From a virus: 64,000 nt of DNA. Each line of letters opens with the position of its first letter. The first letter of the stretch is position 1. Position numbers and translations under genes: made by a program. Under the pieces are notes generated by a model. That model had not been told where the DNA came from, did no database searches, and worked only from the letters and a program-made list of their open reading frames with translations. Below, piece after piece: positions 13,583 to 42,664 of the stretch. The stretch is taken from the IMG/VR virus record IMGVR_UViG_3300042691_016646, positions 25,580-89,579 of that record. The stretch is one strand, 5' to 3'.

Positions 13583-13995
13583 AAATACAGATTATTAAAG
13601 ATATATCAGATTGTATAGATGGTTATAATCCAGTACTTATAGAAGACGATAATCTAAATATAGACGTTCCAGATAATTCAATTTCTTCTATTTTAATGAT
13701 CAATACTATAGAACTAATTTCATATAAAAATATCGATGCTTTCTTGAATAAAATTAGACAATTGTTAAGGCTAAACGGTACGTTAGTAATAACAGGCGTA
13801 GACATAAATTGTTTGTCAGTAGATTGTGTCAATAGAGTTTTAGATTGTGCAGTAATGAATGAAGTTATATATAATCGCAAGGCCATCTATGATTGCAAAG
13901 AACTATCAGATAAACTAACCTCTCTAGGCATCAAAACGGATAAATTATTATTTAAGGGATCAACGTATGAACTACACGCCACAAGAAAAAATTAG
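13579..13995 (+). CDS. Partial methyltransferase-like domain
   Basis: 138 residues resembling only the C-terminal half of a class I SAM-dependent methyltransferase: VPDNSISSILMINTIELISY (motif IV/V region), then the helix ENIDAFLNKIRQLLR-like stretch and LNGTLVITGVD (motif VI). The N-terminal motif I (GxGxG) that binds SAM is absent, with only about 35 residues before the recognisable part. It is therefore either a decayed or a deliberately reduced domain. It is translationally coupled to the upstream glycosyltransferase, and such short domains accompany sugar-modification genes in other phages (general knowledge, not checked here). Confidence 0.55.
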   Translation: MKIQIIKDISDCIDGYNPVLIEDDNLNIDVPDNSISSILMINTIELISYKNIDAFLNKIRQLLRLNGTLVITGVDINCLSVDCVNRVLDCAVMNEVIYNRKAIYDCKELSDKLTSLGIKTDKLLFKGSTYELHATRKN

Positions 13996-14692: not shown

Positions 14693-14693
14693 A

Positions 14694-16245: not shown

Positions 16246-16991
16246 GTGTTACAGTAATATTGAGTGGTTTCAAAAGACCATACTCTGCACAGCAACAATA
16301 TAATGCTATTATAAATCAAACATATAAACCATCAGAGATTATTTTTTGGCAAAATGATTCTGATAAAAAGATTGAATTTCCACCAAGTGTAACATCTAGA
16401 TGCAAATATATTCGGTCAACAGAAAATTATGGAGTTTGGGGAAGATTTGCAATAGCCATGATGGCTAGAAGTGATTATGTGTGCATAATAGATGATGACA
16501 CTATACCCGGATTAAGATGGTTAGAAAATTGCATATCAACCATTAAGGAAAATAATGGTATATTGACTACTAGGGGCGTAATTGCTAACCCTAATAAATT
16601 GAACCAATATCCGGGTCCAGACAGCTATACAGCATTTGGCTGGTGTAATCCTAATGAAAAAACAGTTCAAGTAGACATAGGGTGCCACTGCTGGTTTTTT
16701 GACAGAGATGTATTAAGAGCTTTTTGGGCAGAAGCTCCTCATGCTTTACCTATGAATTATGGTGAAGACATGCATTTGTCATATGTTGCACAAAAACATT
16801 TTAATCTAAAAACATATGTCCCTCCACACCCACAAAACGATACTTCATTATGGGGATCTCAGCCAGATACTGGCAAGAAATATGGAGAAGATGCTGTAGC
16901 CATATCGTGGAATAGTGTTGCAAATCAAGGGATGAATGATTATTGGAATTTCATATTAAGTAATGGATTCAAACCATTGAGGACAGAATGA
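16242..16991 (+). CDS. Glycosyltransferase family 2-like (GT-A fold)
   Basis: 249 residues. SVTVILSGFKRPYSAQQQYN opens a GT-A domain; KPSEIIFWQNDSD is the second strand; YVCIIDDDTIPG (residues 80-90) contains the metal-binding DDD at 84-86. HALPMNYGEDMHLSYVAQKH (about 172-190) supplies the acceptor-side ED pair usual in GT2 enzymes. A Cys/Trp-rich segment (VDIGCHCWFFDRDVLRAFW) precedes it. This is the clearest metal-dependent sugar transferase of the block. ATGA overlaps at both ends. Confidence 0.85.
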   Translation: MSVTVILSGFKRPYSAQQQYNAIINQTYKPSEIIFWQNDSDKKIEFPPSVTSRCKYIRSTENYGVWGRFAIAMMARSDYVCIIDDDTIPGLRWLENCISTIKENNGILTTRGVIANPNKLNQYPGPDSYTAFGWCNPNEKTVQVDIGCHCWFFDRDVLRAFWAEAPHALPMNYGEDMHLSYVAQKHFNLKTYVPPHPQNDTSLWGSQPDTGKKYGEDAVAISWNSVANQGMNDYWNFILSNGFKPLRTE

Positions 16992-24579: not shown

Positions 24580-27500
24580 TCAAGTATTGTAGAATTCTTT
24601 TCTTGCTTCTTGATTGATGTTTAAAGTATTTGGCATATTAGGATTGAATTCTTGTGAATATGGACTAAATACTTCAGAGAATGATGCCCCGCCAGTTTTG
24701 TATGATCTGTTATTATAAAGAAGATTTCCCTTCTCGCCAGCAAAATGATTAATGGAGTCTAACAAAGCAGATTCAGACGTAGGTCCAACAGCTAGTGAGT
24801 GATCAACAACATTAACTGATTGACTATTTGGACTATCACCAAAATTACTTCCAAAATTTCCACCGCCAAGCACAGAAGAATATGACTGACTTTCATATTC
24901 ATTAACAGAAGCCACTATGTAATTATTCATTTCTGGCATTCTTACCGGTGTTCCATTATTACCAAATAGGTTAATTGCTCCAATAGTATTAACGCTAGAC
25001 TGAGATTTACCAAGACCTTTTCTAATCAGTGAGTTTCTTTCATCTCTTAATCTTTGACGCTCTCTACTAATTTTAGAAATCATATCTTGTTTTTGTTTTT
25101 GTAATTTTCCAAAACTTGCAGTATATAGATCCAACTTATAAGTTGTTCTTAGTCCAGCCTCAGATACATCTACAGATATATTTGTAACAAGTGGGCCACC
25201 ATCTTCTAATGCCTGACAAAGTGACCTATCTGGAATTCCTGGGAAAGTAAAACCACCTCGCTCAGAGAACAACAATAAACTATTTGAAAATTGAGCTTGC
25301 AGCACACCAGCACTATTCATCAATTCATATCCAGCATAATTCCAAGGAGCTAGATTTTCATCTTTAATAAATTCTACTCTACCTCCAACATTTACGTATG
25401 CATTTCCTTGAGGGTCTACTTGAGAAGATATCCATGGGCCATAACATCTTTCGTTAGACATTAATGGTAGTACTACTAAGTCTGGATATACAGGAGATGG
25501 TGATGCCATTTGTATTTGATAAGGAAAACCAAATTGCATAGCATATTTTGCTTTTTTTGCTGCTAACCATGCCCGACTACTAACCTCTGATGAAAAAACT
25601 GGTAAATTTAATGCGTTACTTTGACCAGCCTCACTTGCATATGCAAGACTAGAAAACTCTGGTAATCCCTTTACAACGTCGATAGTAAGATAATGCTTGA
25701 TACTCTTAGTATCTCCCTCTTGATTAATAGCATCCCTGAACCTTGCATCTTTGGTAGCAGATACTTTACTTGGTAAAGTAATCAATGCATATACAAATCT
25801 AGTATCTAAATCTTGTAATCTAGTGTTTACTATATGACTTTCTAATTCTTGAGAAAAAGGTCTATCATAATCTAGCCTATTTGCAGTACCATCTTGACTT
25901 GTTGTGGGAGAATAATTATATTCAATAAATCTAAAACTATCTACATAACATCCAGTACCGGGAATTAAATCAGATACACTAGTTCTAGAAGATCCAGCCT
26001 TCCATCCAGAACATGGAATGAAAATTTTTCGCGGTCTAGAAACCTTACTTCTTGATGTAGGAGCATTACCAAAAACTGCTATGTCCCTATTTATTAATTT
26101 TGGTGCCATGTATAATTTTTCTTCAACAGTACATTTTACAAATAAACATTGTTTGCTTGCTGAAGGATCGTTATCTCTTCGGTCTGCATCGGCAGTAGCG
26201 AATGACTCCCATCGATCTTCACCTGTATTTTCTAAAAATTCACAAAGATCTGGAACCATACCTCTTGGTGTAATAAGTTGCTGAGTAAAATCTTCAGCAT
26301 TCATAGAATTTACTGCTAAGTGTTGACTATGATCAAATCTAACATATGCCGATAATCTACCATTTTCATCCAAAAAATTAGTAGCATCTTGTGGAATTAA
26401 CAATTGATATACAGCTTTTGGTACAACAGAGTCTGGTAAGGATTGTAATTGAGCAACACTCAAAGTATTTGTATAAAGATCAAATGGAAAGTAACCGCCT
26501 AAATTGGTTGGAGTATAATTAAATTCATATTTATCAGCAACGGGATTAAAATTTACTCTTAATGCTCCAACGTATTTGTTTTGATTGTCATCAATTCCAC
26601 TGGTCAGAAAAGAATTCATGGATCCTCGTCTATCTCCTCTGACAATTTCTTTAAATGCTTCAGAAAATTCTTCATTAATACCAGAAGTTACTGGTCTAGG
26701 TTTGAATCCAAATGGTCCAGTTGCATATTCTCCACCGGCTGCGTTACCATTCCATGCTATAGAGTCTTCATAATGTAAATTGACTTTGCTAGGAATTTTC
26801 ACTAAGAATTTTTTACCTAAGTTATCATCCGCTACTTTTTTAATAAATTCATAAACTTTTAAAGCATTTTCTGTACCCTTTTTAGCTAAACGTGGCAAAA
26901 CCGCTCCGATCCTATGTAGTCCATCTTCCACATTATTGAGTAAATCTAAGTTGGGAGGAGTTTGATTTAATGCATTTTTAATAGCATCATAATATGTTTT
27001 TTCTTGTTGAGATAGTTCGCCGTAATTTATTTGTTCTAGTTCTGCTAATTGTGTATTTCTAACATCATCCCAAGTATCAGCATCCGCACCTCTAATAGAA
27101 GCGGCACCTGTTATCATGCCTGTTATTCTAGATTGTAGCTTGGTTAACCCACCCTCTGGTATTCCAAGTTTTGTCATTCGTTTATAATATAATGGATATC
27201 CATATGGCGGATTGCAGGAGCTAGATGGTAAACCATCAGATCCAAATCGCAATCCACTTGGAGCATATGTATCAAAAACAGAACGAGGAACAGTAACTGC
27301 ATAGTTACTGGCTATTGGTCGAGCGGGAACACCTCCAAAATTTGGAGTTTGACTAAGGGCAGCACCCTCAAATGTATCACCATCTTCTATAGATTCTAAA
27401 TACGTATCATTATATTGTTGTAGAAAATTTTTCCAACACTCATAAGATACTGACGCGCATCGTAATTCCATCTCTGTAGCAACATAATATGCACCAACCC

Positions 27501-29298
27501 CTTTTACATTTAATCCAGTAGTATCTAATAGTATTTGTTGGTATGATCCCCAGCCCTTTGGTATACTAATTGCATTTTGTCCAAGCATACCATAATACGG
27601 CAAAACTTGTTGTTCGACCTGTTTTTCAAGTGTCCATTGTTTCCAATCGGCATCGTCGCCCTCACCGCCGCTACGTTTGCTTCTTGCATTTGCCATACCT
27701 CTATCTGTATTGGTAGAAAAACAATACATATCAACTTCTTGCGCACCAACTACAAATTTGTCAGTTGTTACATTGGACAATTCATATCCAACATCTTGAT
27801 TTTCAACTAAAATACCAACACCAGACAGACTATCTATATAATTTTTAATAGCACCATATACAGGAGGAGATGATCGGTCTATGCTAGACAATCTGATGAT
27901 ACCAGCAATTAATTTGTTTGGATCCGAACTTTGATTGTTATATATATATTGACAAGCTGGATGATTTATAACCGGAAGCAAAGAAACAAATAAATCTCTA
28001 CTAGCTACATCGCATACTTCTAAGGCTAAATCTAATAAATTGATTTGATCAAAATCTAAATAGTACATTGTAGGCAATGTGGGAAGTCCGCTGAAATCAA
28101 CAACATAGTTATATCCTCTAAAATTGATAAGACCGCCATATCCCTTATTGATATATTCTTGAGGCAAAGTATATTCTAATGACATTAAAGCATTCATTCC
28201 CTGTACTAATCTGTAGAAGGGCATACCTTGCGGTCCTCTTCTGGACATACCAGTTCCAGTATATGGAAAGGACGGCTTAGAAGATCCAAACGCCGGAAAT
28301 AATCCTTCGCTTTGACCAATCCAAGAATCCATTGGATCACTTGCGCTAATCGATCCGCTATATGTGACATAACCATTAGTTGGATTTACATATTTTTTTA
28401 ACAAATTAAACCCACCAAAAGCTGAGTTTAATTGTCCAGAAAGTTCTGTAGAAAAATTATGCTCTAAAAATCCATAAACATTAAATATGTTTTTAGTATT
28501 GAATGTACTTCCAGCATAATTATTCAAGACTACCACGACATTAGATAAAATTTCTCTGGGGTCAGTAACTTGTACAGAATACAATGGATTTCCACCGGGA
28601 CCACGGTTTTGAACATAAGATTGTAATATACCACCAAAGACTATATGACCAGAACCTCTGCCGGGACTAGTTACTGCATTATTAAAATCATATATTGTAT
28701 TATTTTCTAAATTAACATATTGATTTGCAGCCAAAGATCTAAAACTATCTTTGTTAAATGATCCATTTGCAGTAATAGTAACTGCCTCTAATGTATTAGT
28801 ATTATATATAGTATCAAAAGTGTACACGTAAGCTTCTTCTACAGTTGCAAAGTTAGATCCAAATTTAAAAAATACGGGGCTTCCAGCCATTGGAGGAACA
28901 AACCCATCACCATTTCCACTATGATAAACATCATCTCCTTGTCCTTGAGCGGTGTTGTCAGACTTGTTATATTCATCAACTACTAGGTCAACAGAAAGAG
29001 ATGAGCTACTGTCTCCAAATCCACCATTCATGCTGAAATTTCTTATGGAAGCTCCTAAGAATGTTTGCTGCGGATAGCCTCTATCATAAGTCTTTGGTGT
29101 AGTTGCATCTAACGTCCAACCTCCACCACCTAAACCTTGCGGTATGACACTACCACTTTTACTAGGCCAAGATGTGCCATAAAATCCACTAGCTGGTATT
29201 ATAGAAGAAATTTGACCATTATTTACAATACCAGCGTATGGTATAGGAACTGGGTTAGGATTACCATAAATACCAGATGTTAGTTCTGTTCTAGTCAT
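24580..29298 (-). CDS. Giant tail/baseplate-type structural protein
   Basis: About 1572 residues. ATG at 29298, one base after the upstream stop (TAACATG), is preferred; an upstream in-frame start at 29331 is only a TTG inside the previous gene. Sequence is mostly beta-rich and Asn/Gly/Ser-rich. Around residues 1385-1430 there is a charged coiled-coil (KLQKQKQDMISKISRERQRL) and the C-terminus ends in an Asn/Ser-rich flexible tail. Segment ITGMITGAASIRGADADTWD and the following Gln/Glu-rich helices (about 745-800) form a helical region. No lysozyme or peptidase motif is seen. Predicted hub or baseplate wedge-like role by position only. Confidence 0.62.
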   Translation of the reverse strand: MTRTELTSGIYGNPNPVPIPYAGIVNNGQISSIIPASGFYGTSWPSKSGSVIPQGLGGGGWTLDATTPKTYDRGYPQQTFLGASIRNFSMNGGFGDSSSSLSVDLVVDEYNKSDNTAQGQGDDVYHSGNGDGFVPPMAGSPVFFKFGSNFATVEEAYVYTFDTIYNTNTLEAVTITANGSFNKDSFRSLAANQYVNLENNTIYDFNNAVTSPGRGSGHIVFGGILQSYVQNRGPGGNPLYSVQVTDPREILSNVVVVLNNYAGSTFNTKNIFNVYGFLEHNFSTELSGQLNSAFGGFNLLKKYVNPTNGYVTYSGSISASDPMDSWIGQSEGLFPAFGSSKPSFPYTGTGMSRRGPQGMPFYRLVQGMNALMSLEYTLPQEYINKGYGGLINFRGYNYVVDFSGLPTLPTMYYLDFDQINLLDLALEVCDVASRDLFVSLLPVINHPACQYIYNNQSSDPNKLIAGIIRLSSIDRSSPPVYGAIKNYIDSLSGVGILVENQDVGYELSNVTTDKFVVGAQEVDMYCFSTNTDRGMANARSKRSGGEGDDADWKQWTLEKQVEQQVLPYYGMLGQNAISIPKGWGSYQQILLDTTGLNVKGVGAYYVATEMELRCASVSYECWKNFLQQYNDTYLESIEDGDTFEGAALSQTPNFGGVPARPIASNYAVTVPRSVFDTYAPSGLRFGSDGLPSSSCNPPYGYPLYYKRMTKLGIPEGGLTKLQSRITGMITGAASIRGADADTWDDVRNTQLAELEQINYGELSQQEKTYYDAIKNALNQTPPNLDLLNNVEDGLHRIGAVLPRLAKKGTENALKVYEFIKKVADDNLGKKFLVKIPSKVNLHYEDSIAWNGNAAGGEYATGPFGFKPRPVTSGINEEFSEAFKEIVRGDRRGSMNSFLTSGIDDNQNKYVGALRVNFNPVADKYEFNYTPTNLGGYFPFDLYTNTLSVAQLQSLPDSVVPKAVYQLLIPQDATNFLDENGRLSAYVRFDHSQHLAVNSMNAEDFTQQLITPRGMVPDLCEFLENTGEDRWESFATADADRRDNDPSASKQCLFVKCTVEEKLYMAPKLINRDIAVFGNAPTSRSKVSRPRKIFIPCSGWKAGSSRTSVSDLIPGTGCYVDSFRFIEYNYSPTTSQDGTANRLDYDRPFSQELESHIVNTRLQDLDTRFVYALITLPSKVSATKDARFRDAINQEGDTKSIKHYLTIDVVKGLPEFSSLAYASEAGQSNALNLPVFSSEVSSRAWLAAKKAKYAMQFGFPYQIQMASPSPVYPDLVVLPLMSNERCYGPWISSQVDPQGNAYVNVGGRVEFIKDENLAPWNYAGYELMNSAGVLQAQFSNSLLLFSERGGFTFPGIPDRSLCQALEDGGPLVTNISVDVSEAGLRTTYKLDLYTASFGKLQKQKQDMISKISRERQRLRDERNSLIRKGLGKSQSSVNTIGAINLFGNNGTPVRMPEMNNYIVASVNEYESQSYSSVLGGGNFGSNFGDSPNSQSVNVVDHSLAVGPTSESALLDSINHFAGEKGNLLYNNRSYKTGGASFSEVFSPYSQEFNPNMPNTLNINQEARKEFYNT

Positions 29299-29299
29299 G

Positions 29300-29716
29300 T
29301 TAAACCCTATACTGTCTACTATACATTTCAAATCTAAAAGAGGCTGTTATCAAAGAATTATATACATTAAATCTTGGGCTACTGCCCATAGAAACATTAG
29401 TTATACCAGCACCTCCTAATGCTGAACCAACAGCACCAGCACTTCCAATCGGTGCGTAATGTATATAGTCATTATACTCTTTAAAATCAGTAATCCCATT
29501 TACTCTAGATGCATACCCATTAGAAATTCCAACAGTCTCAAATGTCAAGCCATTAGGTGCTATTGGGCTAGGAGGTCGCGCAACAGACACCGCATCATAA
29601 GTAAGTCCATAGGTTACTCCTCGCATATCATTTGTTAATTGAGGAGATATACGACTATCGTTAGCATCTAATCCTTCTGATGGATTATTATTAATATTTT
29701 CTGAATCTGTTGGCAT
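29300..29716 (-). CDS. Small structural protein between baseplate-type giants
   Basis: 138 residues starting MPTDSENINNNP at 29716, where ATG overlaps the upstream TAA (TAATG); a longer frame from 29779 would lie inside the previous gene. N-terminal half is disordered (Asn/Ser/Pro-rich), C-terminal half contains GSAGAVGSALGGAGITNVSMG, then RFNVYNSLITASFRFEMYSRQ, a likely beta hairpin. Function unknown; placed with tail/baseplate genes on both sides and expressed with them by translational coupling. Confidence 0.55.
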   Translation of the reverse strand: MPTDSENINNNPSEGLDANDSRISPQLTNDMRGVTYGLTYDAVSVARPPSPIAPNGLTFETVGISNGYASRVNGITDFKEYNDYIHYAPIGSAGAVGSALGGAGITNVSMGSSPRFNVYNSLITASFRFEMYSRQYRV

Positions 29717-31566
29717 TATCTTCCTACCTCGTATGTCCAGTTGATTTGTAATGAATATCTTCCAGTACTTGGATCCCAACTTTCTGATGGCGGGCTAACA
29801 AAATATTTTCTTATTCCTGCTTCTTGTATAGGACTATAAGCATGTATAATAGAATTAATTTGAGTTTTAAATGGTTCATTTAAACTTGGTTTTGATAAAA
29901 CTGATTGTTGCCTAATTCTATTAACAAGAGTTCCAGCACCAGATGTATAATATTTATCCATAACTAATTCAATACTTAAGTTTCGTTGATATTCTGTTCT
30001 TCCGCCTATATATTGTAAAACTGGACCGTGCTGTCTGCCAATGACCGGTATAACTGCAAATACATCGCCGGGGTAAGTATCGTTGCAAGTGATATTTTCC
30101 GACAAAGCCCCGCTAACAATATTTTGTAATCTAGTATCATATTCAATATCGTAAGTGATCTCTCCAGTAAATTGATTACTAGATAGTGATACGGATAATG
30201 GTATAAAGTTAAGAGGTAAATGTAAGACGGACTGTGCGCGACGGTACAAATAACAATTGGGGCCATAAGTACCACTGTTACTTATTTGATTCCATTTATA
30301 ACGAGCATTTTCATGGGCAGTGTTTAGAGGGGCAACTCCAAATTGCGTCTGTGTGCTAGCATTGGATCCGCCATATTGAGTTGATCCAGCATGTACGCTA
30401 GATAATCCTTTGATGCTTCCATTGACAGTAACTTTATGTAAAGCACTATCATAACTTTTAGATACTCCCATATTAAAATTTTCATAAGCATTTCCACTAG
30501 ACATTAACCAAGTATCATTGACAGTAATGGTTCCGGCAGTGGTATCTATTGATTCTGTTCGTAAATGATTATAACCTCCCCATATAGTTTTAGCAATATT
30601 TAAAAATCCGCTACCAAAATATGGACCTAAATTATATTCTGGAAATTGCTCATAACCAGTTGAATTATTTGTTGAAACATTATCATTATCTTTAAGTACA
30701 GTATTATAAATGTACTGTTTGGCTTGCTCCCAAGCTTCTCGCCGTTTGATTGGACCTGTACCGTTTTCAGTGTAATACATAGTACGACCAGTGGCCGTAA
30801 TATTTCTTGTAACACGATAAGTTCTAAGAGATCCTATATGATTAGGTGGCAAAATTGTTGGATTAGCAACGTTAGTATTAGTAGTTCCATTTCCCTCTTC
30901 TACTTCCAAAGACCAGCTTTCACTATAATCTTCAATAAACCCGCTAGCATCTAAAGCATTTAGTAATGTCAAATTTCTGTCATTTGATCTTATTGGTATT
31001 CTACTTGAACCAGTTGGACTTATAGTAGAATTAGTAATACCATCTGATATAATTTTATTGCTATTATCTAACAAAACCTCTGCGCGTAAATTAATAGTAT
31101 ATTTGCAATTTGTGATATAAGCACCCTCTTCAAAAGATATAGACTGAACTGTTGGGTGAAATTTCAAAATTGGGGTATCTGTCATTGCGCTATCTGATTC
31201 CGGCCTATTACTAACAGGTAATAATTCGCAAAGTTGTCCATCTCTTTTAAATAATTCTCTAAGCATATTTTGCTTATGAATTATAGAACTCATAGCATTA
31301 TCAAAATGAACTGCTTCAGTTGCCGGTCTAGCATAAGTTTGTTGGAATGCAGACTGTACCGTCGCTGGTGAATTGTGAGAAGTTGATCCACCGCCAATTA
31401 TATAAAATGGGCTACCTTCATCTGGTAGAATAGTACCATTAAGAGTTATATCATAATAACTACCAAGCATACCGGCTTTATTTCTAATAACATTTTGAGT
31501 TATAGAAATAAGTGGAGTGGGTCTAATGAGACAGGGGGTAGATTCATCATAATAAACAGCTAGCAT
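29716..31566 (-). CDS. Tail/baseplate-type structural protein
   Basis: 616 residues. The ATG overlaps the upstream stop codon (TAATG). Sequence starts LAVYYDESTPCLIRPTPLI and has VQSISFEEGAYITNCKYTIN (about 143-162), a pattern in which an EG-acidic turn precedes a beta strand, seen in phage baseplate and tail hub proteins. About ten further beta-rich segments follow, ending in SLQINWTYEVGR. No enzymatic motif. Neighbours are the 2198-residue FG-GAP protein and a small coupled ORF. Assignment to baseplate is by position and composition. Confidence 0.6.
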   Translation of the reverse strand: MLAVYYDESTPCLIRPTPLISITQNVIRNKAGMLGSYYDITLNGTILPDEGSPFYIIGGGSTSHNSPATVQSAFQQTYARPATEAVHFDNAMSSIIHKQNMLRELFKRDGQLCELLPVSNRPESDSAMTDTPILKFHPTVQSISFEEGAYITNCKYTINLRAEVLLDNSNKIISDGITNSTISPTGSSRIPIRSNDRNLTLLNALDASGFIEDYSESWSLEVEEGNGTTNTNVANPTILPPNHIGSLRTYRVTRNITATGRTMYYTENGTGPIKRREAWEQAKQYIYNTVLKDNDNVSTNNSTGYEQFPEYNLGPYFGSGFLNIAKTIWGGYNHLRTESIDTTAGTITVNDTWLMSSGNAYENFNMGVSKSYDSALHKVTVNGSIKGLSSVHAGSTQYGGSNASTQTQFGVAPLNTAHENARYKWNQISNSGTYGPNCYLYRRAQSVLHLPLNFIPLSVSLSSNQFTGEITYDIEYDTRLQNIVSGALSENITCNDTYPGDVFAVIPVIGRQHGPVLQYIGGRTEYQRNLSIELVMDKYYTSGAGTLVNRIRQQSVLSKPSLNEPFKTQINSIIHAYSPIQEAGIRKYFVSPPSESWDPSTGRYSLQINWTYEVGR

Positions 31567-34500
31567 TATTTACCTCTTACACTTAAGTTAAGATTGTCGC
31601 TTGGACTTCCTATCCCGCTAGTATATAAGCCTAAAGATTCAAGTGCGGTTCCAGAAGAAACCTGTGCAAATAATGGCATACCGGATAGGCTAGAATCAGC
31701 ATCCCCGGTTTTTACATCGCTATACAATCCTAATGTATTATACACATATGCTGAATTTTCGACACTTATAAGAAGGGGTAATTGAGAGCTTGGCGGTATG
31801 TGACCGCCGCTAATATGTAAGTTTAATGTATCATTTATTAGCTTACCATATTGATAATATCCATAAATTGATTCAATATATGGTCTATGAGAAATAAAGC
31901 CTTTTGTGGACGGGTCTTGCCCAGATACCTCTAGGAATATTTCACCTTTGCTATTTGTGATTACACTACCACTAGCATGATATCGTGTATTGTCACCAAT
32001 ATTAGTAAAGTATAATGATGCGAATGGATTACCATACTGATCTCTGTCACCAAAGACTTTTGCAGATATCCAAGCCCCACTATTTGGTATAGAAGGTCTT
32101 TGAGATTTAAGCATAATGTCCTTAGCATAAGTAGCACCAACATTTAGCATAGATCCAGATGCAAAATTGCATCCAGCTATTATGCAATAGTCGGCATCGC
32201 TTCTATATGGACGAGACAAGTATATGTCTCTTCCAAACCTTTCTCCGCTTCCCTTTGCGTAATTGTCTCCATCTGGATTATATGGATATGAAACCAATTT
32301 TTCTACTAACTTCCAAGATTGAGTTTTGTTTTCCCAATCTGTAATTTTATTTTCATATACATATATAGCACCAATGTTATTGATGTATGCATTATCTATG
32401 TTAAGCTGATCTCTTATTCCAGAATCTCCTAGATCATAAATAGATAATTGTGGTATATCAAACTGAGGGTTAAAATTTTTCCTAGCAAAAGCTCCATCGT
32501 CATAATAAAAATCGTAGTAATTACCATAACTATGATTTGGCGATCCTATTATAATAACGTCATTCTGCATATCAACTGAATGACCGAAATGGTCTGAATA
32601 AATTCCCACTCCACTAAGTTGTCCCATCAATGAATTAGGTCTAATCTTTTTAGTATTTTCCCATTTGTTTTCTGAAGATTTTTCAAACATGTATACTGCA
32701 CCGGCACCACCATCTTGACCCAAACGCAGAGGGGTATTATCTCCCCAAGCATTTAATGATTCTGAATCAAAGGCAGAAAATGGAGATCCAATTAGTATTT
32801 TATTGCCACGGGCAGAAACAGAATATCCAAATAAATCTCCAACATAACCAGATGGGAACTTATCAAAATCTAGATAATCATAACCTTTGTCTTTTACTAT
32901 AGCGGGAACTCCACCGCCAATAGTTGCATCAGCGTAAGAAACGCCATCAATAACTCCACTAATTCGTGAAGTAGTAGAATGATTAATTTGTTTAGGTAAA
33001 AATCCACTTATTGCATATAATTTTATCTCTTCTATCTTTTTTGGATCAGTTTCTCCATCCCATGGTAATGCTGCCCCAACAATATACTTAGGAATGTATT
33101 GAGATTCATAAGAATTTATTGGTGCTGATGGCAGATTTGGATAGTTACCAAAATTTTTATTAATGCCAAGATAAGGTGCTTTAGAATGATATTTATTTGG
33201 ACTTCCACGTTCTGATGAAGTTAACTTGGTATATACATTAAATTGTCTACCAGCATTTTCTGAAAAGAATTCTGTTTCTGGATACAAGCTTCTAATAAAT
33301 GAATATGTGTCTTGTGGAATAACATTATTTTCAGTAACATATCTGCCTTGTAAAATACTAGAGTCAGTTATGACTGTTATTCTAGATCTAGCAAATCCAG
33401 CATCAAAATCAGAAAAAATTTCTAATTCTTGTGCTACTACAACTGGACCATCTTCTATTAATTGATTTCCCAAAAACTCACATCCAGATTTACAATATTT
33501 TGTATTATCTGTACTAATTGTTCTAACAACTTCAACAATTTCACGACTTTCTTCTACTGGATCAGAAATTCTATAAAATGAAATTCCTACAGGCACATCA
33601 ATGGTAGATACAACTGCTTTTTCATAAATAGGTATTAATACTCCCGAAATGCCGATTAATCTTACACTTTTTGGAGATTTATCATTTTTTAATCTAGGCA
33701 TGACACATGAAACATAAATGTTTACATTATCAGTATTAGAGACTTGAAAATCTTGAAAGCATGTTCCGCCGCCACAATTTATTGTATTGAATGATGTATT
33801 AATAGTTTGAGATTCAAATAAACTTCTATTTTCATCCAGCTCATATATTCCAATTGTACCTAAATCTGGATATGTTCCGGTTGGAGTTACTGATGATTTA
33901 TCTACATTAACAGTTAGAGCATGTGATTCGGCGGGATCTTGAGAGTCTGTAGTAACAAATAATCTATATCCAGATCCCGGCAGTACTGGTACATTTATTT
34001 TTACAATACCGGCATTAATATCCCAGTTATCATTGTTGTATTCTTTTGGAATTTCATCATAAACAGGATAATCTATATATGCTAGCGGAACAGCACCATC
34101 ATTTAATTTGAATGGATAAAATGATCCATTACCAGAAAAATAATTTATTTTCTTGTTTTTAACATTACTAAAGTATTGACCACCTATTTGATGATTTTGA
34201 TTTATTGAAAAAGAACCAAAGCCAGATAGTGGATATTCTCCATTATACTTTTGCAATAATTCCAAATTTATACCTAACTTCTCTAGGAATGTCTTTGTTT
34301 GAATAATACTAGATATTGTATTATCGCAAGTAATTATCAATCTTCTATTTCCCAATAATAACCAAAGAGATAGATTATCAATTTGCGAGTTAGAAGGTTG
34401 AGAAATTAAGTTTGGTAACCATGCGACGTTATAAGTGCTATCTAAAACATTAACATTATATGTAATATTATTATCTGCACCTAAAGCATCTTTTAACAAA

Positions 34501-37500
34501 GAATTGCTATATGCATCATAAAAAGACTCCCATCCATTCCAATTCAACTGCGCTATATATGATCGTCCAAATACAGTTTTAGAAAAAGAAATTAAATTTT
34601 GATAGAATAAGATGTTTTCATCATTTGATCCCTGTTTTAATTGAGACTCTATAACAAGACTAGGTATGATATCAATTTTAGAAGTTGGTTGATTTTTGTA
34701 AGAGTATTCTAAAGCAAAATATGATTTATCTGAAATTTCTTCTCTAGACAAATATGGTGTAATATCAATTTTCGGAGAACCTTTAGCTTGTAAAACACCG
34801 CCAAGTTCGTCTGTTGGAATATAAAATAAAGGAGTATTGGTTCTGTTATTAATATTGTATAAAATGCTGTTATAGTCATGACCAACCCTGCTGCCAGAAC
34901 TAAAAGCGAAGTTAAGCTCTTCACTCATAGGAGAACCAAATTCATAATAGTTATTAGAACCTGCTGTAATTGTATCGTAGACAATACGTGTTCCAGAAAC
35001 CGCAGGTATGGCTGGATATATAATTTCTTGTTTTACTTTTTCAGCTGCTACTAGTATTGGTATCGGTTCAAAATTTTTAGTTGGTTTTGGTTCAAAGGCT
35101 ACATCCCCACAGGCTGGAGTATATGATCCAAATATTAAAGGCCAATTATAACCATATATTAATAATCCACCATTTGTACAACAAGAAGCATTCCATTCTG
35201 CCCTTAAGTCTCCGTAATTTTTTAATGGCATCTGACATTTGGTTTGTATTTGTATTTTTGTTTGATCAATTGAACAATCATCAACTTCTTTGCAGGGCAT
35301 TTCTTCAAAGTATGGATAATATATTTTGATGTCAGCAACACCACTACCTCTAACTGGAGATCTTGTTACATAAGTACTTGTTAATCCTTGTGGAGTAAAA
35401 GATGGAACAATATTGTTAAATGAAGAGTATCCACTTGGAAGTGATTCATATTCATTTCTAGCTGGAACAATTCTCATTCTAGATTGTAATTTAGATAACA
35501 AATCATTTAAGATGTTGTTTGATTGAGAATATATTCCATTGGCTTCCCACCTTGGATCATTTCCAACCAATACTAAATTTCTGTCTCCAAGTGCTAACCA
35601 ATTTTTAATCTTATCCAAGATTTCTTCACTAAGAGCGGAAACCGCTGGCGTTATTATAAAGATCAATCCAGCATCCTGCGGAATTTCAGAATCATCGAAT
35701 TGAGTTTTTACATAATTTTTGTCAGAAAAAATTTGAGCTAAATAATTAAAGTGTCCAGAATCTGCCGTGTTTGAACTAATATTCTCATGTAAATTTCCAA
35801 ACTTACCATACTCAATAGCTTTGTTATGAGGATAATATTTTCTAGATTCAAATACGTGTACTGACCCTGTATACAAACTTGCTGACCAAGATGGATGAAT
35901 TCTACCAGCGGGAATTCCTTCGGATCCTAGATATCTAGCTTGTAAAGTCTTTCCATTTGGTGCATGTCCATCTGTATTATAATAAACATCTGCATTGTTA
36001 TGAAAATTAAGACTATCCGTTGGTGCGCCAGCTACTACTACTGTGCCATTTTCATTGGTGTCTACACTATAACCTAGTCTAGAAGTTGGTGCGTGTTCTT
36101 GTGCGACAAATGACCAGCCACCAGCCGGTTGCATATTGCTATAATCAAATGTATATATATTTTGATATTCTTCTACATTATTATCTAATCTAGCTTGAAA
36201 TTTGTCTTCTGGATCTAATGATAGATATAGAGCTTTTTTGTCTTCTAATAATTGAGGCTTACTGTAATATGCCGCAAGCTGTTTAGAATACTTGTCTGAC
36301 CTTTTAGATGCAACCCAATCAGCAATTTGATAGTTGTAAAAGTAATTACGCGCTTCGTAATTCCTTTCATACATCATGACTGCTTGATTGATATATGGAG
36401 AACCAATTACTACAAGTTCGCCGTCATCACTTATACTAACTGCGTGTCCAAATCTATCATTGTAATCTCTTGTTACATTGGGAGAAGAAATTGCTTGAAT
36501 TAAATTCCATGATCCACTTTCTTTTTCAAAAATATATACTTTTCCACCACTGTCTGGTGGGATGTTAAAATTTTTGTCATACTTGTTAAATGTTCCGACA
36601 TTATTAGAGAAAAATCTTACTTGATTACTTTCAACTAATCGTCCAGTATCTAGAACTTCACCTAAAATCAATTTGGACATGTCTATCCAATCAGTATCGC
36701 CTTCTGTCAAATATTCATATACTATTCCAGATGATTGAACGCCATAAAAGTCTTTTAACCCACTAGCAAAACTATATTTCTGATAAAAGTCAATGAATCT
36801 ATCTAATGCTGGCTCTAAGGCTTCTCTACCACCCATTGAAAAACTTCCATCGATACAAATACCTAGCATCGGTGGAATCCCACTATTTATACTATTGTTG
36901 TAAGGAAAAGCTTCCAAAAATGAAGAAGTAATTCCACTCAATGTTCCATTAATAGAGGACTCTGATAATGGGTATCCAAAGTTTTTACTTATACGTTTTA
37001 ATGTAATAAAATCCGGTTTTTCTGGAAAGACGGGATCAGATTCGTCAGAGTTAGCGGTTGGTACGCAAACAATAATTTTGACATCAAACTCTACTCTAGG
37101 ATCAGAAAAATAGTTGAATACCAAATCTTTATTAGCTATGCTAGACAAAATATTTTCATATGTTTTTACTTTCCAAGGCGCACCGGGTGATGGGTCCGGT
37201 AAAATATAACTAAACTCGTCAGTAAAAATCATCAAACCAATAGATACTTTAGATGGTGGATCATCTTCAAAAGTTCTTGTCCATCTTGCACCAACTCCAC
37301 CAACTACCAATATTTCTTGTTTATCTTCTCCTAAAGATTTTATATTTTCATTTACAGAGAGATCTACAGAATGTCCAAACTGTCTTCCGTCCTGACCCAC
37401 AAACCATGATGTTTGTACACCAGTGAAATCAGACGGCAACCCATTGATAAAAATATTTGACTCTATCGCATAATCACCTAGCAATCCAGATGGTAAAGTT

Positions 37501-38162
37501 AATTCTGTCTCAAGACTCCATTCTGACTTATAATTATCAAGCGGCCAATCAACAGTAGATGGTCTGGCATCTCTTCTATACAAGAATACTTTGCCAGCTT
37601 CTTCATATGTGGTAGATCCAGATGTAACTGGCATCTTTGGACATCCAATAGCTAACAAATCATTTTTAGACGCGACAGATTTACCATATTCTCCACCGGC
37701 AAAAACGTTATCAACTAATCTAAATCCACTATAATCATTGCTGATTTCGTCAGTTTCGTTTTTATTGTACTCTACTTCTAGAATTTCTGTTGGAATCTTT
37801 ATAGCGTTTGAAGATCCAGATTTACCTGTTATATTAACGACGTAGGGCAAGTTGGGAGCCAAGCCAGTATATTTTCTTATACCGTAAAAATGACCACTAT
37901 ATGGCATAGGATCAAAAACAACTGAGTCATATGTGCTTTCAGTTACAAAAGAAATATTATTTTCCGTAGTAATTATATTTTGATTTTCCGCCGCTATGTA
38001 CTGCAATGAGTTACTATCTATAGTATGCTTAAATGATCCACTAGGAAATGTAAGATTGGTATAAGTATTTTTAGCTCTAAATACGCCACCGTCTACACAT
38101 ATCTCTGGATAATACCACTTAATTCCATGAATATCTACTATGGCTTCTGTGCAATAACTCAT
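31566..38162 (-). CDS. 2198-residue tail protein with seven FG-GAP repeats and a vWA/MIDAS motif
   Basis: Seven FG-GAP-type repeats (YGKSVA, QFGHSVDL, RFGHAVSI, RLGYSVDT, LFGYSVSA, HFGHSVDM, RFGRDIYL) sit near residues 158, 263, 569, 696, 1778, 1858 and 1975. Several are followed by a LLAIGCP- or VVIGSP-like GAP strand and a GxVYxFE strand, as in integrin alpha propellers. Between repeats 2 and 3, IDGSFSMGG (Asp438) matches the DxSxS MIDAS of vWA domains. A roughly 1000-residue insert lies between repeats 4 and 5 and contains a duplicated Rossmann-like module (about 810-960 and 1240-1390). The last 120 residues are LxLxxxG beta repeats shared with the upstream 1501-residue protein. A cell-surface adhesion role at the tail tip is inferred. 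ATGA overlap with the upstream gene. Confidence 0.72.
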   Translation of the reverse strand: MSYCTEAIVDIHGIKWYYPEICVDGGVFRAKNTYTNLTFPSGSFKHTIDSNSLQYIAAENQNIITTENNISFVTESTYDSVVFDPMPYSGHFYGIRKYTGLAPNLPYVVNITGKSGSSNAIKIPTEILEVEYNKNETDEISNDYSGFRLVDNVFAGGEYGKSVASKNDLLAIGCPKMPVTSGSTTYEEAGKVFLYRRDARPSTVDWPLDNYKSEWSLETELTLPSGLLGDYAIESNIFINGLPSDFTGVQTSWFVGQDGRQFGHSVDLSVNENIKSLGEDKQEILVVGGVGARWTRTFEDDPPSKVSIGLMIFTDEFSYILPDPSPGAPWKVKTYENILSSIANKDLVFNYFSDPRVEFDVKIIVCVPTANSDESDPVFPEKPDFITLKRISKNFGYPLSESSINGTLSGITSSFLEAFPYNNSINSGIPPMLGICIDGSFSMGGREALEPALDRFIDFYQKYSFASGLKDFYGVQSSGIVYEYLTEGDTDWIDMSKLILGEVLDTGRLVESNQVRFFSNNVGTFNKYDKNFNIPPDSGGKVYIFEKESGSWNLIQAISSPNVTRDYNDRFGHAVSISDDGELVVIGSPYINQAVMMYERNYEARNYFYNYQIADWVASKRSDKYSKQLAAYYSKPQLLEDKKALYLSLDPEDKFQARLDNNVEEYQNIYTFDYSNMQPAGGWSFVAQEHAPTSRLGYSVDTNENGTVVVAGAPTDSLNFHNNADVYYNTDGHAPNGKTLQARYLGSEGIPAGRIHPSWSASLYTGSVHVFESRKYYPHNKAIEYGKFGNLHENISSNTADSGHFNYLAQIFSDKNYVKTQFDDSEIPQDAGLIFIITPAVSALSEEILDKIKNWLALGDRNLVLVGNDPRWEANGIYSQSNNILNDLLSKLQSRMRIVPARNEYESLPSGYSSFNNIVPSFTPQGLTSTYVTRSPVRGSGVADIKIYYPYFEEMPCKEVDDCSIDQTKIQIQTKCQMPLKNYGDLRAEWNASCCTNGGLLIYGYNWPLIFGSYTPACGDVAFEPKPTKNFEPIPILVAAEKVKQEIIYPAIPAVSGTRIVYDTITAGSNNYYEFGSPMSEELNFAFSSGSRVGHDYNSILYNINNRTNTPLFYIPTDELGGVLQAKGSPKIDITPYLSREEISDKSYFALEYSYKNQPTSKIDIIPSLVIESQLKQGSNDENILFYQNLISFSKTVFGRSYIAQLNWNGWESFYDAYSNSLLKDALGADNNITYNVNVLDSTYNVAWLPNLISQPSNSQIDNLSLWLLLGNRRLIITCDNTISSIIQTKTFLEKLGINLELLQKYNGEYPLSGFGSFSINQNHQIGGQYFSNVKNKKINYFSGNGSFYPFKLNDGAVPLAYIDYPVYDEIPKEYNNDNWDINAGIVKINVPVLPGSGYRLFVTTDSQDPAESHALTVNVDKSSVTPTGTYPDLGTIGIYELDENRSLFESQTINTSFNTINCGGGTCFQDFQVSNTDNVNIYVSCVMPRLKNDKSPKSVRLIGISGVLIPIYEKAVVSTIDVPVGISFYRISDPVEESREIVEVVRTISTDNTKYCKSGCEFLGNQLIEDGPVVVAQELEIFSDFDAGFARSRITVITDSSILQGRYVTENNVIPQDTYSFIRSLYPETEFFSENAGRQFNVYTKLTSSERGSPNKYHSKAPYLGINKNFGNYPNLPSAPINSYESQYIPKYIVGAALPWDGETDPKKIEEIKLYAISGFLPKQINHSTTSRISGVIDGVSYADATIGGGVPAIVKDKGYDYLDFDKFPSGYVGDLFGYSVSARGNKILIGSPFSAFDSESLNAWGDNTPLRLGQDGGAGAVYMFEKSSENKWENTKKIRPNSLMGQLSGVGIYSDHFGHSVDMQNDVIIIGSPNHSYGNYYDFYYDDGAFARKNFNPQFDIPQLSIYDLGDSGIRDQLNIDNAYINNIGAIYVYENKITDWENKTQSWKLVEKLVSYPYNPDGDNYAKGSGERFGRDIYLSRPYRSDADYCIIAGCNFASGSMLNVGATYAKDIMLKSQRPSIPNSGAWISAKVFGDRDQYGNPFASLYFTNIGDNTRYHASGSVITNSKGEIFLEVSGQDPSTKGFISHRPYIESIYGYYQYGKLINDTLNLHISGGHIPPSSQLPLLISVENSAYVYNTLGLYSDVKTGDADSSLSGMPLFAQVSSGTALESLGLYTSGIGSPSDNLNLSVRGK

Positions 38163-41100
38163 TTTTTACAGTCTCCGTAACATGCTAAATTAACTCCTCT
38201 TATATTATCATCAGCATCGACATATGCATAGACATTATCTACAGATGTTATACCCTGACCAATGTTATCACTATCCCATTTTATTGTAGCACTTTTAGAG
38301 GCTAAATTGTCGGAGATAGGATAATTTAATGTCACCAGCGGCAAATTTCCAGAAATGTTAGTTTTAACCGGATCGAAACTAGATAAGAATAAATTAAATG
38401 AGTTAGATGTATTCCCAATAAATTGTTGATCATTATAAATATGCAATGACATAACCGAAGATGGGTATGCATTAATTGATCTATTTATTCCGCGTACACG
38501 TAAATTTAGTATATTATCAGCTGGTTGATAACCTTCCGGTCCTAAATTACAAAGATTTAAATAGTCATTTGAATTAAATGCCATGCCAGACACATAGAGT
38601 GGCATAACAGTTTCATTCATAAGTTGCCCACTGACATTAAGACCTAGACCCCTAAATGGTAGAGATCCAAACATGCCAGTAAAAACTTGTTCACTACTGT
38701 CAATAGAACCATTGCCAATAGTATATAGACTCAATATCTCTGGCGGCGTAAAATATCCACTGCTACTATTGTCAACGAATAAGTTCAAACCACTATTATG
38801 TATGCCGGTTGGTCCATGGCCAGTAACAAATAAATTGAGTGGCGGAAACCCACTAACAGGTGGGCCATTTTCTGGTGTGAATAGATTTAAAGTATTAAAT
38901 TGATAATAATATCCACTTGTATATAAGAACAAAGTTCCACTAGTGTGGCCATCAAGATAAATTGCATTGTTTGCTCTAATATTAGTATTATGAATTTTGA
39001 CTTTAGATTTATAAGGCGAACCAGATGGGTAAACAAGATCATATTGTAAGAACATCTGATTGACATCATTTAAGAGATACTTATCTCTGAATTCATTAAA
39101 ATATGATTCACTATCAAATGTAGCCCAAGGTTCAGATTTATCTAAAATATCATTGAATGTTAATTTACTAGTAATTTTTCTTATACACCCAGATGGTTCA
39201 AGATAATGAATAGATCTGTTTACCAATCCAAGAGATTTACTTGGACGTTCTTGTGATTCTTGAGTTGGCGCATAAATACTTACAATAAATTTAGGACCAA
39301 CTTTTCCATTTGGCCAAATAATATCATTATTAGTATGATGCTCTAATACAGTATCAACACAAAGAGAGTCTTCTCTAAAGTCATAACCCTTTGGTAAATT
39401 TTTAGATATACGCGGAGCTAACCCGTAAAATCTTGATTGATCTTCAGATGGAATATCAGATATGTCGAATCTCAAAAAATCATTTTCTATCTGAGTATGA
39501 TAAGATACACCAGATAAATGTATGTTGGATGGTAAGGTTTTATTTGTTAACTGAGAATATCCAGAACCCGGATGGTCTAGACTAAACGTAATATAATCTT
39601 TTCCTTCTCGCTTTGTGTAGGAATCAAAATCTGATGAAAAACTACATATCTTAAACGCACCAAGCTTCCATCTAGATATATCATCATCTATATTAGATGC
39701 TAATACACTATAAGAATCAAAGAAATCATTTGCAGTAATTTGATTTAAAAATCTATTAGGATTAGAATCTACTATATGACAACCACTTGAATAACCAATT
39801 TCATGCAAAAACATTGGTATAGATCCAAGTGATGTAAAATAATTAGAATATCCAAAGAAATTGTTTGTACTGCTACTATATGAATTAATAGTTACTTCAC
39901 CTCTAAATCGATCAAATGGTTTTATCAATTGATTGTCGGTGTATAATTTGAATTTTTTAGTGGCACTGTTATAAGTTATCAATATTGGGAGCGGGAAAGA
40001 ATATTGTGAAATTTTGATTGTATCAACTATTGTAGATATTGTGGAGTTGGTATTTTTTACTTTTAGTGTTAAGTTTTCATTCTCTACAACTATTGCAATA
40101 GACCAATCTCCATCTTCGCAGCACATTATTAAATGATTGTTTAGCTCACCGCTCGATACTTTGTCGGGAGTATATCGAAAGAATAATACAAAATCATTAT
40201 TTGAGCTAGTCAAAAAATTGGTATTTACATAATCGTTTCCAATACGCAAAGCTCTATCAAAATTATCATATACACTGTTGTTCCAAGATAATGATGAATA
40301 ATCTGTTGTAATACCATCAATTAGCTGCTGAGAAGAATATCTCCATCCAAAATTACTTAATATATCTAAATCATCGTTTATAGATGCCCCTACCGCTACT
40401 TTATTATGATCATATATATTTTGACCATCGCAGTTTGTAAAATCTATGTAAGAATTTAAAAATAAAGCGTCAGACTGCTGATGATTAAAAGAGAAATCAA
40501 ATCTTTCACGGTCAAAATCTCCTCCAACAAATATATCTCCAGTATGACCTCTCCACCTTCTGGCAAAATTGGTAGATAAGTAACTAGGAGATGAGAATCC
40601 AACTACTAATCCGCTAGGCTGTTCGTTGCTTGATATTGTGCCGCTTCCATCTGGTAGTAGTGTTATTATTTTTTGTACAGCATTTCGGTTAGATGGACTA
40701 CCTAAAGTATGAAGATGTAGAGCATTGGCTGGTTTGTAATATAAGATCAAACTAACATGAGCTATAGAAGCCCCGCTAGGTATCGGACATATATCTATAT
40801 ATAGATTTTCAAAATACGGACTTAAAGAATATTTATTGTATCCTAATTTATTTGGGTCAGAATATATATCTAATGGTATTATATATTCTTTAAATGATGT
40901 ACTGTCTACTAAGATTGAAGTATTTAGTACGTAGTGATCACCCAGCGAAGATATATCATTCAAGAAAAACTCACTGCCATCAGATATACTACTGCTAGAA
41001 ATACTCAAGTTAGGTTTTTTAAAACCAGATACATCTGGAATACTACTTGAGATTGTGGGTAAAGATCCACTATTTTGTAAGAATCCACCAATGGCTGGAG

Positions 41101-42664
41101 TGACATATAATAACTTATCGTCACTATATCCAACTATGTCGATTGGATAATCAGAATTACTAGGGTGCTTGCGGGCTATAACTTTTAACTCAGCATAGTC
41201 TACTTCAAAGTAGTCTTGATATTGATACTGTTGTTTTGTAGCATCGTCAAAGACTTTATTTCCACCAAAATTAAATGCACCGCCAGCATATACGTTTAAT
41301 TCATCGCGATCCGTATCAAATTTAAGAATTAATCTACCGCTGTCAACATTTGGTAATGACCCGCTGAGACTGATATAATCTCCATAATCCGTATTTACAT
41401 GTCTAATTTTTTGCAACAGCGTATTAGATGACAATACATCTTGATTACTGTGTTCATAATCTGGCGTTCTCCATACGCTACTAGCCTCTGGATATATACC
41501 ATTGTTAAACTCATTCGTAAACAATGTATTTGGTAATATTATTTTTTTAATTCTTTCAGACTTGTCCCGAACTTTTACAAAGCAGTTCAATGCATTGTCT
41601 TTTCGAACTCCAACACCTCCACTATTTCCAATCTCAATAGCAGAAATAAGCAATGCATTGTATGGATTTGGACTAGGGGCATCTTTGATACATAGTTGCT
41701 CGTAACCCAAATTAAATCGATCATCAAATGGACGCTGTGGACAATCTACAGATACACTAAAGTTGCATGTATATGGTTTATTTTCTAAAAATAGTGGACT
41801 GCCAGAATCCATGTATGGATAACCAGAACTCCATGTCGTTTGATTCACTTTATTTATATTAGCTTGTGATATATATGTAGTAAAGTTATTATCACCTTCT
41901 ACAAATATATCATCATACTTAATGATCAAATTGCCGCTTGGATCATTAAGAGTAATATCATATATTTTGTATCTCTGAGGTCTTCTCAATAAATAATTGT
42001 CAAATGGTGCATATGCCCTTAAAGCGAAATAGCTAAACTTGGGATTAGCAAGTGGATATGTTACTCTAAATTTGTATTCTAAATCTCCAGACGCAAGAGC
42101 TTGATTAAGAAATACAAAACTTCTAGCATCATCAGATGTTAAAAATCCATTGGAATTATTATCAGTGTAATTACCCGCAAAAATTCCTTCATCAATACTT
42201 GTATATATATTGGTAGATTGAGCTTGTGAATTGCTTATATTGACGTTGGTATCAGTAAACTTATTTTTAAATGATATGTCACCAATAGGATATAGCTTAG
42301 ATGATGCTTGAAAAGATAATTTACTTCCACTAAATTTATCAGTTTTTGTAGTTTGAAAATTACTAGAGGACAAAAATCTATTATTTACGCCAAGTGTGGC
42401 AGATGTTGACCCGAGAATTTTACCAACAGCGGATTCATATAAGTCTTCCTTTGGAGAGAAATTAACATTCTCATGAGCCACTACTTTTCCAACACTAGTT
42501 AATGCTTGAGTAAGATTTCTAAATATTGAAGCAGAAGAAGAAACTTTAGCAGATGAAGATATACGGCAAGAAAAGCCATGATTGAATGGAGATATATTAG
42601 CAGATATTTTACTATCTGATTGTAAGATAATATTAGTATTTATATTACAAACTGAGCAACTCAT
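38159..42664 (-). CDS. 1501-residue distal tail structural protein with C-terminal LxLxxxG repeats
   Basis: Follows the tape measure gene directly (stop and start abut), the usual place of distal tail and tail-tip proteins. The first 1200 residues are beta-rich and Ser/Asn-rich; segments such as ILITYNSATKKFKLYTDNQ (about 890) with PLPILITYN resemble concanavalin/LamG-like jelly rolls that often mediate carbohydrate binding, a weak match. From about 1240 to 1430 it has repeated short strands (LNLFVTGHG, LNLFVDNSS, LSLYTIGNG, LGLNVSGQL, MPLYVSGMA) with 20-30 residue spacing. Ends in a cysteine-containing VNLACYGDCKK. Not assigned to a named family. Confidence 0.6.
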   Translation of the reverse strand: MSCSVCNINTNIILQSDSKISANISPFNHGFSCRISSSAKVSSSASIFRNLTQALTSVGKVVAHENVNFSPKEDLYESAVGKILGSTSATLGVNNRFLSSSNFQTTKTDKFSGSKLSFQASSKLYPIGDISFKNKFTDTNVNISNSQAQSTNIYTSIDEGIFAGNYTDNNSNGFLTSDDARSFVFLNQALASGDLEYKFRVTYPLANPKFSYFALRAYAPFDNYLLRRPQRYKIYDITLNDPSGNLIIKYDDIFVEGDNNFTTYISQANINKVNQTTWSSGYPYMDSGSPLFLENKPYTCNFSVSVDCPQRPFDDRFNLGYEQLCIKDAPSPNPYNALLISAIEIGNSGGVGVRKDNALNCFVKVRDKSERIKKIILPNTLFTNEFNNGIYPEASSVWRTPDYEHSNQDVLSSNTLLQKIRHVNTDYGDYISLSGSLPNVDSGRLILKFDTDRDELNVYAGGAFNFGGNKVFDDATKQQYQYQDYFEVDYAELKVIARKHPSNSDYPIDIVGYSDDKLLYVTPAIGGFLQNSGSLPTISSSIPDVSGFKKPNLSISSSSISDGSEFFLNDISSLGDHYVLNTSILVDSTSFKEYIIPLDIYSDPNKLGYNKYSLSPYFENLYIDICPIPSGASIAHVSLILYYKPANALHLHTLGSPSNRNAVQKIITLLPDGSGTISSNEQPSGLVVGFSSPSYLSTNFARRWRGHTGDIFVGGDFDRERFDFSFNHQQSDALFLNSYIDFTNCDGQNIYDHNKVAVGASINDDLDILSNFGWRYSSQQLIDGITTDYSSLSWNNSVYDNFDRALRIGNDYVNTNFLTSSNNDFVLFFRYTPDKVSSGELNNHLIMCCEDGDWSIAIVVENENLTLKVKNTNSTISTIVDTIKISQYSFPLPILITYNSATKKFKLYTDNQLIKPFDRFRGEVTINSYSSSTNNFFGYSNYFTSLGSIPMFLHEIGYSSGCHIVDSNPNRFLNQITANDFFDSYSVLASNIDDDISRWKLGAFKICSFSSDFDSYTKREGKDYITFSLDHPGSGYSQLTNKTLPSNIHLSGVSYHTQIENDFLRFDISDIPSEDQSRFYGLAPRISKNLPKGYDFREDSLCVDTVLEHHTNNDIIWPNGKVGPKFIVSIYAPTQESQERPSKSLGLVNRSIHYLEPSGCIRKITSKLTFNDILDKSEPWATFDSESYFNEFRDKYLLNDVNQMFLQYDLVYPSGSPYKSKVKIHNTNIRANNAIYLDGHTSGTLFLYTSGYYYQFNTLNLFTPENGPPVSGFPPLNLFVTGHGPTGIHNSGLNLFVDNSSSGYFTPPEILSLYTIGNGSIDSSEQVFTGMFGSLPFRGLGLNVSGQLMNETVMPLYVSGMAFNSNDYLNLCNLGPEGYQPADNILNLRVRGINRSINAYPSSVMSLHIYNDQQFIGNTSNSFNLFLSSFDPVKTNISGNLPLVTLNYPISDNLASKSATIKWDSDNIGQGITSVDNVYAYVDADDNIRGVNLACYGDCKK

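Follow-up and report, generated by a model that had tools for sequence, protein, structure and literature searches.

An FG-GAP repeat protein with an inserted alpha/beta domain in the tail cassette of an uncultured phage lineage, and its likeness to alpha-I integrins

Does a phage tail carry a protein laid out like the head of an animal integrin and, if so, how far does the likeness go? This question is raised by an open reading frame (ORF) of 2,198 amino acids in a 64,000-nucleotide stretch of viral DNA (the window), which covers positions 25,580 to 89,579 of the IMG/VR virus record IMGVR_UViG_3300042691_016646. The first-pass annotation described its product, here called the propeller protein, as a phage tail protein of integrin-alpha-like layout, with seven FG-GAP segments and, between the second and third, a von Willebrand factor type A (vWA) domain bearing a metal-ion-dependent adhesion site (MIDAS). 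Our analysis leans, by somewhat better than an even chance, towards a distal-tail protein, encoded by tailed phages of an uncultured lineage, whose propeller would act as display platform for a MIDAS-like loop domain and whose likeness to integrins has arisen by convergence.

The ORF, the positions of its repeat motifs (EYGKS at residue 158, FG at 262 and 571, LGYS at 696, and FG at 1778, 1859 and 1976) and the number of repeats have all been confirmed. The Pfam family FG-GAP_2 (PF14312) was found to match the protein with an E-value of 1.3e-14 (54.6 bits against a cut-off of 23), and its match over the last three repeats was present in all 23 of 23 relatives. The repeat count was examined on an alignment of 61 family members by leave-one-out hidden Markov models (HMMs), each made from six blades and searched for the blade left out. 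The missing blade was recovered in 55, 49, 61, 30, 60, 60 and 40 of the 61 relatives for blades 1 to 7 in order, whereas 1-4 matches fell outside the seven places across all 61 proteins and 0-1 arose in reversed sequences. Since each blade is recovered by the other six and almost no eighth match appears, seven is taken as the true count, and the presence of exactly seven FG-GAP repeats is a robust observation at the sequence level. The same profiles rule out chance as the origin of the motifs. A sequence-profile search of the PDB gave no match beyond a weak one to the FG-GAP region of integrin alpha-6 (E 0.61). We infer that the seven repeats form a closed seven-bladed ring; the AlphaFold2 model (23 relatives in the alignment) covers blades 1-4 and the insert, residues 118-800, with a predicted local distance difference test score (pLDDT) of 77.

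Repeat 2 is broken by 242-296 amino acids, counted from the GAP strand to the next strand, in every relative measured. In the AlphaFold2 model this insert is flanked by the propeller strands 282-289 and 541-548, both of repeat 2, and it therefore occupies the B-C loop of the blade. The annotated MIDAS domain does lie between the second and third FG-GAP motifs, but it sits inside repeat 2, after strand B, and not between two complete repeats. The motif assigned to Asp438 is present as DGSFS and is conserved in the family, which rules out a chance occurrence. In the weighted family, position 438 is Asp in 83% and Glu in 17%, position 440 is Ser in 81% and Thr in 19%, and position 442 is Ser in 98%; these positions rank among the most conserved of the insert. 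A further acidic position, 315, is Asp in 81% and Asn in 15%.

Modeled alone (residues 292-537), the insert is a confidently predicted alpha/beta domain with a pLDDT of 85 and a predicted template modeling score of 0.84. The predicted elements run as strand 304-313, helix 336-352, strands 357-369 and 386-392, helix 401-418, strand 432-437, helix 452-466, strand 480-485 and helix 492-503. The DxSxS residues Asp438-Ser442 directly follow strand 432-437, as is the hallmark of vWA domains after their central strand, and the strands VSIGLMIFTD (304-313) and VKIIVCVPT (357-369) precede it, as was noted in the first-pass annotation. The DxSxS strand is not the first in the insert, and the predicted order of elements thus differs from the linear Rossmann order of vWA. 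When all windows of the protein were scored against a vWA profile derived from bacterial vWA loci, the DxSxS window was highest, with 27.0 vs 21.9 for the next region. In a Foldseek search of the PDB with blades 1-4 and the insert, the four best matches were alpha-X and alpha-M integrins, which carry the I domain (alpha-I), at E-values of 4.9e-7 to 2.9e-6, and integrins without an I domain appeared only near 1e-2. This ranking of a predicted model is suggestive, not proof.

One explanation of these features, of a kind already raised in the first-pass annotation, is that the insert is a genuine vWA domain with a circularly permuted chain, acting as a metal-dependent adhesion domain whose base would be held on the propeller like that of an alpha-I domain. 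The chain would start at the canonical beta-4 (SIGLMIFTD315, a TDG-like strand) and continue through beta-5 and beta-6, after which helix 401-418 would join the former ends and lead to beta-1 (432-437) with DxSxS, alpha-1 (452-466) and beta-2 (480-485). Asp315, a candidate for the Asp of vWA beta-4, would take that position and both ends would fall at the base of the domain, a plausible layout in view of the element order. The predicted strand and helix order fits such a permutation, Asp315 and DxSxS each lie conserved at a strand end, DxSxS with alpha-1 is the best local match of the protein to the vWA profile, and alpha-I integrins lead the fold search. However, when the profile alignment was repeated across cut points and set against reversed and block-shuffled controls, it gained no length on permuting: the score was 26.8 at most cut points against up to 26.2 for the block-shuffled controls. 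The scan is uninformative because the whole score stems from one segment, the DxSxS strand-helix, and Foldseek is unable to confirm a permutation because it follows the chain order. The insert also lacks the canonical beta-3 strand and the alpha-6 helix, and the weighted family alignment of the insert contained no conserved candidate for the MIDAS Thr. On this balance a permuted vWA is possible but doubtful.

Several further results weigh against a vWA domain with a MIDAS. In the profile search proposed along with the first-pass annotation, none of the 23 family members matched Pfam VWA, so vWA identity could not be assigned by Pfam, and the hhalign alignment to the vWA profile spanned 33-46 columns, confined to the DxSxS strand-helix. 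The insert alone gave no match below 1e-3 in the fold search, only generic alpha/beta folds. Viral FG-GAP proteins of 279-411 amino acids, too short for an added insert domain, reached equal fold-search E-values, and because these short proteins score equally, the integrin ranking alone is no proof of a matching I domain. The near relative P0002 has DGSNG, with Gly in place of Ser442, and one clade has KEQTGST, with Glu at 438; both are unusual for a MIDAS, and they make [DE]x[ST]xS the best notation for the motif. What stands of the annotated vWA is an alpha/beta domain with a MIDAS-like motif, and its assignment to the vWA kind is tentative.

The tolerated exchange of Asp with Glu and of Ser with Thr in the motif would also suit a different Rossmann-like fold, of the SGNH-hydrolase or flavodoxin type for instance, in which the D/E-x-S/T-x-S loop is catalytic or structural. 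The tail protein would then carry an enzyme acting on surface glycans instead of being an integrin-like adhesin. The matches of the isolated insert were to HDAC10 (5e-3), the SGNH esterase Est2A (6.8e-3) and flavodoxin (0.044), and the protein has a DUF4350-like Rossmann stretch elsewhere too. Yet none of these three matches is significant (query TM-score, TMq, at most 0.34), neither GDSx nor another catalytic signature was found, and, as in vWA, a hydrophobic residue and then a helix come after the D-x-S-x-S. We regard this alternative, too, as possible but doubtful.

The coordinates of the propeller protein, its parts and its gene neighbors are collected in Table 1.

Table 1. Genes, repeats and inserted domains of the tail cassette, with positions in the window and residues of the propeller protein.
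Feature	Positions	Strand	Details
Tape-measure protein	42665..49702	(-)	2,345 aa; PF10145 1.9e-24; phrog_28 6.9e-22
Upstream 1,501-aa ORF	38159..42664	(-)	stop/start overlap with propeller ORF
Propeller ORF (P0001)	31566..38162	(-)	ATG start; 2,198 aa; seven FG-GAP repeats and three large inserts
FG-GAP repeat 1	37563..37706	(-)	residues 153-200
FG-GAP repeat 2, strands A and B	37287..37394	(-)	residues 257-292
Inserted alpha/beta domain with MIDAS-like motif	36552..37286	(-)	residues 293-537; B-C loop of blade 2
FTDEF	37212..37226	(-)	residues 313-317; C-terminal end of strand 304-313; contains Asp315
DGSFS	36837..36851	(-)	residues 438-442; directly past strand 432-437; [DE]x[ST]xS across family
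FG-GAP repeat 2, strands C and D, past insert	36477..36551	(-)	residues 538-562
FG-GAP repeat 3	36363..36476	(-)	residues 563-600
Helical insert	36117..36362	(-)	residues 601-682; C-D loop of blade 3; five predicted helices 602-660
FG-GAP repeat 4	35823..36116	(-)	residues 683-780
~1,000-aa insert between repeats 4 and 5	32943..35822	(-)	DUF4350-like (GATase-like Rossmann) at residues 820-904
FG-GAP repeat 5	32628..32855	(-)	residues 1770-1845
FG-GAP repeat 6	32289..32609	(-)	residues 1852-1958
FG-GAP repeat 7	32109..32255	(-)	residues 1970-2018
Downstream 616-aa ORF	29716..31566	(-)	syntenic in relatives checked
Downstream 1,583-aa ORF	24580..29331	(-)	syntenic in relatives checked

Two other inserts accompany that of blade 2. 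The helical insert of blade 3 has a length of 95-121 amino acids in all relatives measured. The insert between blades 4 and 5 has 1,060-1,235 amino acids between fixed alignment points, with no shorter version among the relatives measured, and DUF4350 was recognized in 14 of 21 relatives (best 4.6e-5), the match in the propeller protein itself being below the Pfam cut-off. Because of these helical and ~1,000-residue inserts, the integrin comparison covers only a part of the protein. Short segments of the form LNLF-x-SG / LxLYxSG recur at the end of the propeller protein (residues 2113-2198, positions 31569-31826) and at that of the 1,501-residue ORF (its residues 1245-1360), and are possibly a shared fibre-like beta repeat.

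The gene belongs to a tail cassette close to the gene of the tape-measure protein. The order of tape measure, 1,501-residue ORF, propeller protein and ORFs of 616, 1,583 and 1,122 residues is kept across the diverged loci checked, and this conserved position downstream of the tape-measure gene fits the annotation as a phage tail protein. In siphophages, what follows directly on the tape-measure gene is usually a set of genes for distal tail and host-binding components. The 1,501-residue and propeller genes are fused in frame in most relatives (3,650-4,170 amino acids; including L007, L008 and L010-L014), whereas the split into ORFs of 1,501 and 2,198 residues is common to L001, L002 and L004. 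At positions 38140-38180 on the minus strand, the overlap of these two ORFs is an ATGA right behind AAAAAA, where a -1 slip would join both too.

Relatives of the protein were collected from IMG/VR, in which the single sequence found 2 loci. Alignments of two and of seven members raised this number to 10 and 31, respectively, and the C-terminal part raised it to 73, at identities from 100% down to ~31% and on contigs of up to 176 kb. Among 50,697 annotated phage records, four queries returned no relative. As a positive control, the DNA polymerase of the window was used as query and matched 1,308 of these records; the search is therefore functional, and the lineage seems to have no cultured member. 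The architecture thus does recur elsewhere, as the first-pass annotation had suggested looking for, but on ~75 uncultured IMG/VR contigs and, with these four queries, in none of the phage records. Two contigs of the SAR202 metagenome-assembled genome (MAG) OSU_TB57 (C9 and C7 of G001, loci L033 and L162) carry relatives of 4,000-4,400 amino acids; these give a weak lead to the host, or are misbinned phage contigs. Across this MAG and 200 further genomes of its phylum, the insert domain was found on the phage contigs of OSU_TB57 only. At another locus, L032 (IMGVR_UViG_3300050343_000214), the propeller frame is broken, with 131 stops over the matched stretch when read in one frame, which is probably due to an assembly frameshift or a decayed gene.

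The most likely role of the propeller protein is that of a distal-tail adhesin. The seven FG-GAP repeats would make up a seven-bladed propeller serving as display platform, three loops of which have been expanded. In the B-C loop of blade 2, a Rossmann-like alpha/beta domain would most probably hold a divalent metal with its D/E-x-S/T-x-S loop and Asp315 at the end of another strand, and touch a ligand on the host surface in the manner of MIDAS sites. The C-D loop of blade 3 would add a helical module, and the stretch past blade 4 a module of ~1,000 residues with the DUF4350-like Rossmann domain. The propeller would be the scaffold, and the loop inserts would make the contact with the cell at the tail tip. 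A stronger proposal, that the phage has independently evolved an alpha-I-integrin-like head, in which the seven-bladed FG-GAP propeller carries on a top loop of blade 2 a permuted vWA with a working MIDAS for metal-dependent attachment to the host, appears rather unlikely to hold in full.

Elsewhere in the window, DNA polymerase III alpha is encoded in two pieces at 4110-8815 on the plus strand, one with the PHP and NTPase domains (4110-5732) and the other with the finger domain (7247-8815). The pieces are separated by two ORFs, one for an RNase_T exonuclease (6230-6910) and one for an Endonuclease VII of HNH type (6870-7250), and this arrangement suggests a mobile endonuclease at the polymerase split. 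Several glycosyltransferases of families 1 and 2 are present at 1500-2375 and 9818-16991 on the plus strand, the tail genes being on the minus strand.

In comparison to the alpha-I integrins alpha-X and alpha-M, the phage protein shares seven FG-GAP repeats and an alpha/beta domain with DxSxS between FG-GAP motifs 2 and 3. The annotated integrin-alpha-like layout is borne out in the repeats, the insert and the top fold matches to alpha-I integrins, but the insertion loop is different. The phage insert follows strand B of repeat 2, in the B-C loop and ahead of strands C and D. In the sequence of integrin alpha-M, with the strands assigned by eye, the outer strands C and D (GLCFLFGSN and KFPEAL) precede the I domain, the order being GLCFLFGSN..KFPEAL..CPQ and then EDSDIAFLIDGSGS, with the I domain past strand D. 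In the established propeller topology, the B-C loop and the post-D loop would be on the same face, and therefore a similar function is possible though the insertion events differ. Moreover, vWA profile similarity of the phage insert is undetectable beyond the DxSxS region, the phage repeats match FG-GAP_2 and on inspection show no DxDxDG calcium loop (for example, the A-B loop SISDDGELVVIGSP has none), and the phage protein has two further large inserts and a gene near that of the tape measure.

Homology to alpha-I integrins, with the phage protein as a relative or donor of the integrin head, would explain the same repeat family and number, the insert between the same two FG-GAP motifs and the lead of alpha-I integrins among the fold matches. 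Against it stand the different insertion loop, the FG-GAP_2 repeats without calcium loops and the history of the I domain. A 2023 study has located the I domain between blades 2 and 3, directly behind a structural proline, and has traced it to a single gain, from a collagen-type vWA, in the ancestor shared by tunicates and vertebrates (PMC10659397). Direct homology is largely ruled out by the other loop and this single chordate acquisition, and we consider it highly improbable. For the same two reasons convergence, already preferred in the first-pass annotation, is favored, and it is most likely the origin of the likeness to alpha-I integrin heads.

Among viruses, FG-GAP-type propellers are already known from fold searches of BFVD, for example in cyanophage S-TIM5 (H6WG31), uncultured Caudovirales (A0A6J5S3H5 and A0A6J5L8L4), Agrobacterium phage Atu_ph07 (A0A2L0UZX4) and FG-GAP proteins of giant viruses. 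An alpha-I-like insert was not demonstrated in these proteins in our analysis, and some of them, with 279-411 amino acids, are far too short for one. Bacillus phage 0305phi8-36 has a vWA domain in the baseplate/fibre gene gp164; that vWA was recognized by sequence and an FG-GAP propeller is not reported there (PMC2147016). Proteins of Pfam FG-GAP_2 belong to the same repeat family, whereas here seven repeats are split by three large inserts in a tail protein of ~2,200 residues. The literature searched contained no description of a phage FG-GAP propeller that carries an I-like insert. What our study adds to the known viral FG-GAP propellers is a conserved MIDAS-like alpha/beta domain at a near-integrin position in a conserved tail cassette. 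Should metal-dependent binding be shown, this would be a clear convergence of phage attachment with the adhesion of animal cells, and would indicate which part binds the receptor in a widespread phage lineage of which no member is in culture.

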